Below, piece by piece: positions 23,475-25,993 of a stretch of 64,000 nt of DNA. The position numbers and the translations under genes were made by a program. The notes beneath the pieces were generated by a model, which worked only from the letters and a program-made list of their open reading frames with translations, searched no databases and was not told the origin of the DNA. The DNA is taken from contig NZ_JAKLLH010000013.1 of the NCBI RefSeq assembly GCF_023150235.1, positions 34,302-98,301 of the forward strand, in the 5' to 3' direction. The first letter of the stretch is position 1. Every line of letters begins with the position of its first letter. The stretch is from Azonexus sp. GTDB taxonomy: Bacteria > Pseudomonadota > Gammaproteobacteria > Burkholderiales > Rhodocyclaceae.

Positions 23475-23665
23475 GGTTTTCTCCTTGTCTGTCAAAGCCC
23501 GGGCGACCCCCCGGCAAGGGCTGGAACATCCAGCTTCAAGGATACGCGACTCTTTCCCGCAGCGGCGCGCGACAAACTCCGCGGGCATTTGATGCCGGCT
23601 ATTTGCTGCGCCGCAACATTACGGTAGTCTTGCGGGCTTAAACTTGCTCGAACTTGAGGAATATC

Positions 23666-25993
23666 ATGAGCGAAATCGATCTCAAACGTTTTTTCCTGGA
23701 ACAGGTCAAGCTGTTTCAACATTGCCCCGCCGACATCGTCGAAAAAATCATCGACCAGTCCCGCCTATCTACTTTTGAGGGCAACGAAGCGATGCTCGAG
23801 ACCGGCGACGACAGCCAGTATCTCGGCATCCTGATCGACGGCCATGCCGAAATTTCGGTCAGCGACAATACCGGCGCCCGCAGCGTCGTCGCCCAGCTCG
23901 GTGCCGGCGACGTCTTTGGCGTGATGTCGCTGCTCACCGGCGAGCGGATCGCCGCCGACGTGATCGCCGGCAACCGCTGTTTCGTGCTGCTGATCCCGCA
24001 GGATGTTTTCAACACCCACATCCTGACCACGCCCAAAGCGGTCGCCTATCTGTCGCGCCTGCTCACCGAGCGCATCCGCGCCATGAGCGCCAGCGAGGCC
24101 GAATCCACGGTCAACCACGGCAATCCGGCAAAATCGAGCGACCCCTATGCCCTGTCGCTGATCAACAACCGGCCAGGCAAGGTGGTGGCGCTCAATATCG
24201 GCCTCAGCCAGATCCACTTCGGCATCTACAACACCGCCGAGAGCGGCGCCGACGTGCATGGCATCATCGACCAGACCGAGCCGGAACTGGCCCGGATCAC
24301 GGTCCACGTCGGGCCACAGCAAAAAACCCTGGACTGGCCGCAATTCAAGCTCTCCGACCTGTTCAAGGTGATGGTCGAGGCGAGCCGCCTGCTCGGCCCG
24401 GCCTTCACCTTCCACCCGGAAGACGTCAGCGCCATCGGTCATCGCGTCGTGCATGGCGGCAACAAGTTCGCCAGCTCGGTGGTCGTCACCCCGGCGGTGA
24501 TGGCCGACATCGAGGAGTTGTCGGTCTTCGCACCGCTGCACAACCCGGCCAACCTCGCCGGCATCCGCGTCGCGCTCCAGGCCTTCCCCAGCGTTCCGCA
24601 GGTCGCCGTCTTCGATACCGCCTTCCACCAGACGCTGGCGCCCTATGCCTACCTCTACGGCCTGCCCTACGAGCTGTACAAGCAGCACGGGATCCGCCGC
24701 TACGGCTTCCACGGCACCTCACACCGCTATGTCTCGCTGAAATCGGCAGAAGTGCTGCAGCGCCCGCTCGGCGAGCTGGAAATCGTCTCCTGCCACCTCG
24801 GCATCGGGGCTTCGCTGTGCGCCATTGACCACGGCCGTTCGGTCGACACCACGATGGGGATGACCCCGACCGACGGTCTGATCATGCCCAGCCGCTCCGG
24901 CAGCATCGATCCGGCGGTGATGATCCACCTGATGGAAGAACACAAGATGTCGCCGGCCGATCTGTCGGCGCTGATCAACAGCGAGAGCGGCCTCAAGGGC
25001 ATTTCCGGCATTTCCAGCCACATCGCCGAAATCGAAGCCGCCGCCGCCGAAGGCCATCACCGCGCATTGCTCGCGCACAAGGCCTTCTGCTACCAGGTGC
25101 GCAAGAACATCGGCGCCTACGTCGCAGCCATGGGCGGCATCGACGTCCTCGCCTTCACCGGCGACATCGGCGAAGGCAGCGCCACGGTGCGCAGCCTGGC
25201 CTGCCAGGGCCTCGGCTACATGGGGATCAAGCTCGACGAGGAAAAGAACCGCAACCTCGGGCCGGTCGACGGCTACGCGGTGATCTCGACCGACGATTCG
25301 CCGGTCAAGATCCTGGTCATCGCCAACGACGACGAACGCCTGGTCGCCTGGGAAACCCTGCGCGCCATCGAACGCAACCAACTGCTGCTCGAAGCCAAAG
25401 CCGAAGAAACGCCGGCGATCCCGGTTGAAATCTCGGCCCACCACGTGCATCTGGCGCAAGCCGACGTCGAAGCCCTGTTCGGCCCCGGCCACCAGCTGAC
25501 GCCAATGCACGAACTGTCGCAGCCCGGCCAGTACGCCTGCGAGGAAAAGGTGCACCTGGTCGGACCCAAGGGACGCATCGCCAACGTCCGCGTGCTCGGC
25601 CCGACGCGTAAGGAAACCCAGGTTGAAATCGCGATGACCGAGCAATTCAAGCTCGGCGTGCAGCCGCCGATCCGTCAGTCCGGCGACTTGGCCGGCACCC
25701 CGGGGATCACCCTCGAAGGCCCCTACGGCAGCACCACCATCGAGCGTGGCGTGATCTGCGCCCAGCGCCACATCCACATGTCGCCGGAAGACGCGATGCG
25801 TTTCCGCGTGCGCGACAACTACGTCGTCCGCGTCCGCGTCGAAGGCGAGCGCGAGCTGATCTTCGGCGACGTCGTGGTCCGCGTGAACCCGGCTTTCCGC
25901 CTGGCCATGCACATCGACACCGACGAAGGCAACGCCGGCAATATCCACACCGGCATGCTCGGCTACATCGAGGAAATCCAGAGCCGCGCCTGA
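23666..25993 (+). CDS. Fusion of cNMP-binding-like domain, acetate/propionate kinase and PduL phosphotransacylase
   Basis: 775 residues, three domains in one frame. Residues about 12-130 have the cyclic-nucleotide-binding fold, but the cassette reads FGVMSLLTGERIAA, so the ribose-binding Glu is Val86 while Arg94 remains. Residues about 172-570 are an acetate kinase with Arg260, His292, Asp317, His349, Arg410 and Glu503 at active-site positions. The N-terminal loop is NIGLSQIHF instead of N-G-SSS-K, and the Asn of HLGNGAS is Ile380. Residues about 586-775 are PduL, with AHHVHL, RHIHM and AMHIDTDEGNAG metal-binding motifs. Together it would link acyl-CoA, acyl-phosphate and ATP. GAGGA precedes the ATG. 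It is a single gene. Confidence 0.9.
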   Translation: MSEIDLKRFFLEQVKLFQHCPADIVEKIIDQSRLSTFEGNEAMLETGDDSQYLGILIDGHAEISVSDNTGARSVVAQLGAGDVFGVMSLLTGERIAADVIAGNRCFVLLIPQDVFNTHILTTPKAVAYLSRLLTERIRAMSASEAESTVNHGNPAKSSDPYALSLINNRPGKVVALNIGLSQIHFGIYNTAESGADVHGIIDQTEPELARITVHVGPQQKTLDWPQFKLSDLFKVMVEASRLLGPAFTFHPEDVSAIGHRVVHGGNKFASSVVVTPAVMADIEELSVFAPLHNPANLAGIRVALQAFPSVPQVAVFDTAFHQTLAPYAYLYGLPYELYKQHGIRRYGFHGTSHRYVSLKSAEVLQRPLGELEIVSCHLGIGASLCAIDHGRSVDTTMGMTPTDGLIMPSRSGSIDPAVMIHLMEEHKMSPADLSALINSESGLKGISGISSHIAEIEAAAAEGHHRALLAHKAFCYQVRKNIGAYVAAMGGIDVLAFTGDIGEGSATVRSLACQGLGYMGIKLDEEKNRNLGPVDGYAVISTDDSPVKILVIANDDERLVAWETLRAIERNQLLLEAKAEETPAIPVEISAHHVHLAQADVEALFGPGHQLTPMHELSQPGQYACEEKVHLVGPKGRIANVRVLGPTRKETQVEIAMTEQFKLGVQPPIRQSGDLAGTPGITLEGPYGSTTIERGVICAQRHIHMSPEDAMRFRVRDNYVVRVRVEGERELIFGDVVVRVNPAFRLAMHIDTDEGNAGNIHTGMLGYIEEIQSRA

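Follow-up and report, generated by a model that had tools for sequence, protein, structure and literature searches.

A stretch of 64,000 nucleotides from Azonexus sp. (contig NZ_JAKLLH010000013.1, positions 34,302 to 98,301), referred to here at its full length as the window, carries a gene that joins a cyclic nucleoside monophosphate (cNMP)-binding fold, an acetate kinase (AckA) and a PduL phosphotransacylase in one polypeptide. The gene (23666..25993; the features of the window given by coordinates lie on the plus strand) begins with an ATG at 23666 and runs to a stop codon ending at 25993. It encodes 775 amino acids in a single uninterrupted frame, as had been proposed from the sequence-only reading of this DNA. 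Three Pfam matches, all above the curated cut-offs, bear out this layout: PF00027 (cNMP_binding, 9.5e-14) at residues 36-116 (23771..24013), PF00871 (Acetate_kinase, 5.1e-128) at residues 172-561 (24179..25348), and PF06130 (PTAC, 1.4e-78) at residues 586-759 (25421..25942). An AlphaFold2 (AF2) model of the protein (mean pLDDT 80.9, pTM 0.55) matches the acetate kinases 7fj7, 1g99 and 1tuy, the PduL structure 5cuo, and the cNMP-binding proteins 7t4t and 4cyd in the PDB. The model leaves the arrangement of the domains unfixed and is of low confidence at residues 324-333, 341-346 and 397-405; therefore, no channelling path was taken from it.

The fusion is found in a defined group of bacteria and, in a related form, well beyond it. 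Full-length copies occur in 36 of 199 genomes sampled from the window's family (the window's own counted), with 65-100% identity and no internal stop, which rules out a frameshift, sequencing or assembly artefact as the source of the fusion. An order-wide sample of 200 genomes contained three full-length fusions, every one in the window's family and the window's genome among them. When named genomes were searched with residues 501-775, the best 80 of 557 relatives (L060-L139) were retained and classified. Among these 80, L060-L085 fall into the window's clade and include Azonexus hydrophilus, Dechloromonas, Zoogloea, Rhodocyclus purpureus, Sulfuritalea and Sulfurisoma. Three-domain fusions outside the clade, judged by alignment score to the window's domains, are L086, L087, L089-L094 and L097; their record titles name Phycisphaerae/Planctomycetota, Verrucomicrobium, Akkermansiaceae, Spirochaetales, Deltaproteobacteria, Brocadiia and Bdellovibrio. 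A further four (L095, L096, L098 and L099) are AckA-PduL fusions without a cNMP domain, and L100-L139 are separate PduLs. Of 199 genomes from the phylum of L087's genome, eight gave a match at E <=1e-130, five of them whole-length and three starting only at about residue 254. The three-domain architecture thus occurs in the window's family and, at a greater distance, in Planctomycetota, Verrucomicrobiota, Spirochaetota and others.

The clade, or Rhodocyclales type, is a grouping made here that takes in the window together with the family genomes and L060-L085; the titles of some records give no more than a class or phylum. For instance, L080 is titled Gammaproteobacteria, yet its fusion matches that of a genome in the window's family (G295) at every one of the 550 residues compared. 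In Rhodocyclus purpureus the fusion gene is duplicated in tandem (L077, 6327-8825 and 8829-11300; G338:C59). Two family genomes without the fusion (L185 and L186, from G301 and G391) have individual ackA and pduL genes next to each other, and the kinase residues there are canonical.

Fusions of this general kind are known. Ack-PduL multidomain proteins were described in 2016 (PMC4784909; this and the other papers are cited from excerpts), where PduL (PF06130), also present here, was noted in proteins mostly annotated as Acks, and channelling was suggested. The Ack-PduL section of that paper mentions no cNMP domain, remodelled kinase site or regulon, unlike the fusion in the window. The sequence-only reading had taken the three-part architecture to be uncharacterised and had suggested that fusion would allow channelling; as such, the Ack-PduL fusion and the channelling idea were already in print, and the three-domain form was not found in the open-licence literature searched. 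In that PMC literature, no paper was found joining acetate kinase, a cyclic nucleotide-binding domain and phosphotransacetylase, nor any under 'AckA-PduL' or linking phosphate propanoyltransferase, acetate kinase and polyhydroxybutyrate (PHB).

Nucleotide and acyl sites of the kinase domain

The kinase domain shares its fold, its acyl-side catalytic residues and about 40% identity with the acetate kinase family (PF00871), represented by the enzyme of M. thermophila (MtACK; 1tuu/1g99), whose numbering is used as the reference for kinase sites. Seven nucleotide-site residues of MtACK, S10, S12, K14, N211, G239, G331 and E384, are all changed in the window. The PHOSPHATE1 motif (N177 I G L180 S Q182 I H184; 24194..24217) keeps N7 and replaces S10 with L180, S12 with Q182 and K14 with H184. 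In alignments to MtACK and the clade fusions, N211 of PHOSPHATE2 becomes I380 (24803..24805), G239 of LOOP3 becomes P408 (24887..24889), G331 of the ADENOSINE motif becomes D500 (25163..25165), and E384 becomes D556 (25331..25333). The first reading had identified the replacements at S10, S12, K14 and N211, which the alignment upholds. It had listed Glu384 as kept, and this was mistaken, since E384 aligns to D556 and it is E385 that aligns to E557. The changes at G239 and G331 go beyond its original four.

These changes were followed through an alignment of 72 fusions; seven that did not differ from another over their final 600 residues were removed, leaving 65 (51 from the clade and 14 others); L088 is partly masked and was scored as gap/X. 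Because related sequences are not independent, the counts that follow overstate the evidence. All seven positions are non-canonical in 51/51 clade fusions. S10 is replaced by Leu, Ile, Val, Met or His, S12 by Gln in all 51, and K14 by His (45) or Arg (6). At N211 the clade has Ile (37), Val (10) or one of Leu, Ala and Gln (4), at G239 Pro (43) or one of Ala, Ser and Thr (8), at G331 Asp (46) or one of Glu, Gln, Ala and Arg (5), and at E384 Asp (50) or His (1). Elsewhere the sites are nearly uniformly canonical: the readable fusions outside the clade have the canonical residue at S10, S12, K14 and G239 in 13/13 and at G331 and E384 in 14/14, with Asn (11/13) or Ser (2/13) at N211. The separate AckAs that coexist with the fusion, read in 16 of the 29 fusion genomes having a full one, are canonical at all seven positions in 16/16, as are those of L185 and L186 from the family and of L187 and L188 from outside genomes.

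The concentration of changes was also apparent in a scan of 395 kinase columns for which no sites were picked beforehand and which sought columns where the clade has one residue in at least 80% of sequences and canonical kinases have one residue in at least 90%, the latter never occurring in the clade. Eight columns were fixed and different. The nucleotide motifs together with the E384 loop make up 35 columns and contain six of the eight (p 7.8e-6, approximate since the motif boundaries were chosen by the authors). S10 and N211 are not among the eight because the clade is variable there. Outside the motif columns used, window residue Q477 (25094-25096) is Gln in 51/51 clade fusions and Arg in 32/34 canonical kinases.

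The acyl side has fared differently from the nucleotide side. R91, H123, D148, H180 and R241, which the sequence-only reading had listed as kept, are confirmed by the MtACK alignment and invariant in 51/51 clade fusions. The acetate pocket, which we take to consist of V93, L122, F179 and P232, is likewise preserved (V 51, L 49, F 51 and P 51 of 51), and because its residues are kept in 49-51/51, a changed acyl substrate is not indicated. Of the earlier suggestion that the phosphate donor or the acyl substrate may differ, the sequences thus favour the first part, given the seven clade-specific changes, and do not point to the second. The PduL domain also appears intact. Its residues H593, H595, R648, E654, H702, H704 and H749 match the zinc and phosphate ligands of the Rhodopseudomonas palustris PduL (rPduL; 5cuo), namely H48, H50 and E109 for Zn1, H157, H159 and H204 for Zn2, and R103 (PMC4784909). 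They are kept in 51/51 clade fusions, except for H204 in 50 with one row ending short. The 5cuo structure matches residues 10-182 of the 200-residue domain query; unlike it, the window's PduL is fused behind a kinase.

Published mutants give weight to the altered positions. Changing N211, G239 or G331 singly cuts MtACK activity 6- to 200-fold, with Ala, Ser, Thr or Gln as the tested replacements, which are other than those of the window, and the PHOSPHATE1 motif is important to catalysis (PMC4390882). G331 is described as completely conserved in ATP-dependent acetate kinases, and Asp occupies this position in acetate kinases of Anaerolineaceae, which are listed as possibly not ATP-dependent and whose donor use is given as unknown (PMC5517563). 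On account of these residue roles, a normal ATP kinase in the window's clade is unlikely. The scheme of the sequence-only reading, an enzyme leading from acyl-CoA through acyl-phosphate to ATP, would therefore lack support for this clade, because the altered residues are those that handle ATP.

It could still be that the protein is an ordinary ATP-dependent acetate or propionate kinase plus PduL, with a compensated, equivalent active site and with channelling as the reason for being fused. In its favour, the catalytic residues of the acyl side are preserved, the modelled fold matches known AckAs, the kinase domain is under purifying selection (below), and fusions of other phyla have the canonical site. 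Against this stand seven simultaneous nucleotide-site changes, which include a glycine (G331) reported as invariant in ATP-dependent enzymes and comprise three positions whose single alteration is costly in MtACK, and we regard the ordinary kinase as rather unlikely.

Another explanation is a kinase domain with phosphate, pyrophosphate (PPi) or another non-nucleotide acceptor or donor, which would carry out acetyl-CoA + 2 Pi -> acetate + CoA + PPi or, in reverse, a PPi-driven activation of acetate. The PPi-dependent acetate kinase of Entamoeba histolytica (EhACK; 4h0o) departs from MtACK at N211, G239 and G331, all of which are changed here (PMC4390882), and the Asp found in Anaerolineaceae at the G331 position points in the same direction. 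However, the replacements differ, with I/P/D in the window and T/S/Q in EhACK (the latter as given in PMC4390882 and not from an alignment made here), and the two kinases share 26-27% identity. EhACK also has an extended PHOSPHATE2 loop with a second Gly (PMC5517563), which is absent from the window, where there is no insertion relative to MtACK. Furthermore, residue exchange in the E. coli enzyme gave no PPi use (PMC5517563). Such a PPi-type enzyme is thus an unlikely candidate, marginally behind the ordinary kinase.

Divergence and constraint of the domains

Trees were built with 17 of the 51 clade rows. In the kinase tree these form a monophyletic group (100/100), whose stem is about one change per site long and which joins the nine three-domain fusions from other phyla (96/84), under midpoint rooting and with several long end branches elsewhere. 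With rows matched between the domains, the kinase stem measures 1.31 and its crown 0.31 in depth; the PduL stem measures 0.31 and its crown 0.28. Mean identities show the same pattern: for the kinase, 0.49 between clade and other sequences as against 0.60 among the others, and for PduL, 0.68 as against 0.69. The change at the nucleotide site is therefore best described as a probable single burst that affected the kinase domain when the clade arose, followed by constraint.

Median dN/dS (nonsynonymous over synonymous substitution rates) in 111-113 close pairs is 0.135 for the kinase, 0.059 for PduL and 0.19 for the cNMP domain, rough values given the high dS. The dN of the fused kinase is below that of the separate AckA in 117/120 pairs drawn from 16 genomes (median dN 0.145 against 0.333), although the separate AckAs are perhaps not strict orthologues, which would inflate their dN and this contrast. 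These substitution rates argue against a dead kinase domain. They bear equally on the notion that the domain is inert ballast, kept only for the folding or dimerisation of PduL. Loss of the nucleotide motifs would fit such a scaffold, and so would the existence of PduL as a separate protein elsewhere (L100-L139 among the best 80 of 557 relatives). However, the low dN and the acyl-side residues invariant in 51/51 are unexpected for a scaffold, and this explanation is highly improbable.

The N-terminal domain has a degenerate phosphate-binding cassette, FGVMSLLTGERIAADV (23915..23962), in which the canonical Glu is V86, as had been noticed before, and the canonical Arg is I95, which had not. The Glu is replaced by Val or Ile in 36/51 clade fusions and present in 15/51, as well as in 9/9 other fusions having the domain. 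The Arg is absent in 60/60 aligned fusions with a cNMP domain, which makes ordinary binding of cAMP or cGMP improbable and direct cyclic-nucleotide control of the fusion, one form of the allosteric control envisaged earlier, unlikely. Three positions past the lost Arg, window residue D98 (23957-23959) is Asp in 56, Asn in 2, Glu in 1 and Gly in 1 of the 60, a possible clue to a different ligand.

Promoter box and proposed role in PHB metabolism

A PhaR-like TGC palindrome, TTGCTGC-GCC-GCAACA, lies 63 to 48 nt before the ATG (23603..23618; G000:C27:57904-57919). Its core, TGCNNNGCANCA or TGNTGCNNNGCA, occurs upstream of 27/30 clade fusions, mostly 57-100 nt before the start codon (the misses are L040, L050 and L053), where mononucleotide shuffles give an expectation of 0.28. 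In clade contigs the background is 72 of 2686 segments of 250 nt, some of the fusions' own boxes being counted. The core was found in 0/13 upstream regions of other-phyla fusions, a weak result as their start codons are approximate. An FNR-type box was considered and rejected, a site with at most one mismatch being present in only 2/26 upstream regions.

The same box also precedes several PHB-granule genes. In the window's genome (G000), a longer pattern occurs 24 times, with 2 occurrences for the reversed control; these are 22 places, two palindromic sites having been counted on both strands. Two of them are phasin promoters (box at C6:70941 for the gene at C6:71094, and at C4:1303 for that at C4:1450), and another is at an SDR gene (C33:15406) situated some 2 kb upstream of a PTA_PTB-AckA pair; a third phasin (C40:187774; L234) has no box. 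The places also include a perfect TGC palindrome in front of a gene for an acetyl-CoA hydrolase/transferase (G000:C30:44877-44893), making that gene another candidate for the PHB regulon. A further TGC box (L203; G000:C29:34613) has an AraC-type regulator on one side and a fused B12-binding/MeaB gene on the other. Across 12 fusion genomes, the core is present in 18/23 distinct phasin promoters. This set began as 55 matches, of which 30 were fetched, 4 could not be placed by tblastn and were dropped, and 26 were tested; 3 of the 26 rows repeat a counted promoter, so that 21/26 rows correspond to 18/23 promoters. PhaR (PF07879) is encoded in 12/12 of these genomes and in 4/13 outside fusion genomes. 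Known PhaR sites are TGC-rich (PMC3570403, PMC10888616), and in a Bradyrhizobium phaR mutant pta and two ackA genes are strongly induced (PMC10888616). From the box shared with phasin promoters, the presence of PhaR, the character of its known sites and the Bradyrhizobium response, we infer that the fusion gene belongs to the PhaR (PHB) regulon.

Most fusion genomes have another acetate kinase. A full separate AckA was found in 29/32 family genomes, the search having covered 32 of the 36 with a full-length fusion (G287, G326, G373 and G383, of low completeness, were left out). It is present only as a contig-end fragment in G242, and none was found in G252 and G332 (85% and 91% complete). In the window's genome it lies directly after a PTA_PTB-domain gene (G000:C33); this pair, for which the same overall chemistry is expected, differs from the fusion in having separate genes and a canonical kinase site. 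Because a separate AckA is present in 29/32 genomes, the remodelled fusion usually need not act as the cell's acetate kinase, though this argument is only permissive. In the genomes of the four two-domain fusions, the fusion is the sole PF00871 match. In G187:C1, G295:C21 and G362:C155 the fusion and the separate AckA gene are about 3.5-10.5 kb apart, which may reflect a functional link.

In view of the residue changes and the box, the fusion of the window's clade is slightly more likely than not a PHB-regulated phosphotransacylase of the PduL type, with a kinase domain that has ceased to work as an ordinary ATP acetate kinase. Its PduL domain would convert acetyl- or propionyl-CoA and Pi to acyl-phosphate and CoA, and would be carried on an acetate-kinase fold that still binds acyl-phosphate or acetate. 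The nucleotide side of this fold, remodelled in a single event as the clade arose, would no longer serve a normal ATP/ADP acetate kinase; the fold may instead be an acyl-phosphate-binding module that gates PduL, or a transferase with another phosphoryl acceptor. Expressed within the PHB-granule (PhaR-type) regulon, and usually alongside an ordinary AckA, the fusion would set acetyl-CoA/acyl-phosphate flux during the making or breakdown of PHB. A more specific version, in which the rebuilt kinase of a PHB-regulated single polypeptide passes the phosphoryl group of acyl-phosphate to or from a non-nucleotide (phosphate or pyrophosphate, giving a PPi-linked interconversion of acyl-CoA and free acid) or acts as a direct acyl-phosphate sensor for PduL, is more tentative.

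Several points weigh against this interpretation, besides the doubtful orthology of the separate AckAs mentioned above. A fungus and Entamoeba have altered AckAs that are active enzymes (PMC4390882), and loss of ATP use therefore cannot be proved from sequence. N7 (48/51), D148, H180 and R241 are kept and would be unnecessary for a pure binding module. A strong second AckA is also found in 6/9 outside genomes with a canonical three-domain fusion (G393-G396, G398 and G403; there is none in G397 and G399, and G400 has weak matches only), so its presence does not show that function was lost, a point in favour of the ordinary kinase. As for the regulon, boxes in the window's genome also precede genes without an evident PHB link, encoding class-II glutamine-amidotransferase, HU/IHF-type, histidine kinase, DUF3422 and efflux proteins, and a box lies upstream of phaR itself in only 4/12 genomes, all of the window's genus.

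Within the open-licence literature searched, three features look new: a three-domain form that spans several phyla, a nucleotide site rebuilt specifically in the clade alongside a PduL site left untouched, and a promoter of the PHB type. If the proposed role is correct, a housekeeping domain that makes ATP was turned to another use in a single event at the root of a betaproteobacterial clade, with its partner enzyme unchanged, and acetyl-phosphate would be linked to the control of PHB storage. The fusions, canonical in other phyla and remodelled here, would then form a natural series for testing how acetate kinase chooses its phosphoryl partner, the question posed by the Entamoeba PPi enzyme.

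Gene neighbourhood

A search for a conserved gene neighbourhood around the fusion at 41 loci found none beyond close species, and no tRNA genes or Rfam families were found within the window. The neighbour divergent to the fusion gene encodes a Cu/Zn superoxide dismutase. Upstream lie a PAPS (3'-phosphoadenylyl sulfate)-reductase gene and other sulfur-assimilation genes; sulfate-assimilation genes in this position are common to 8/41 loci, the window counted. Downstream, an open reading frame with a phage-integrase domain (PF00589; 27486-28343) is perhaps the remnant of a mobile element.

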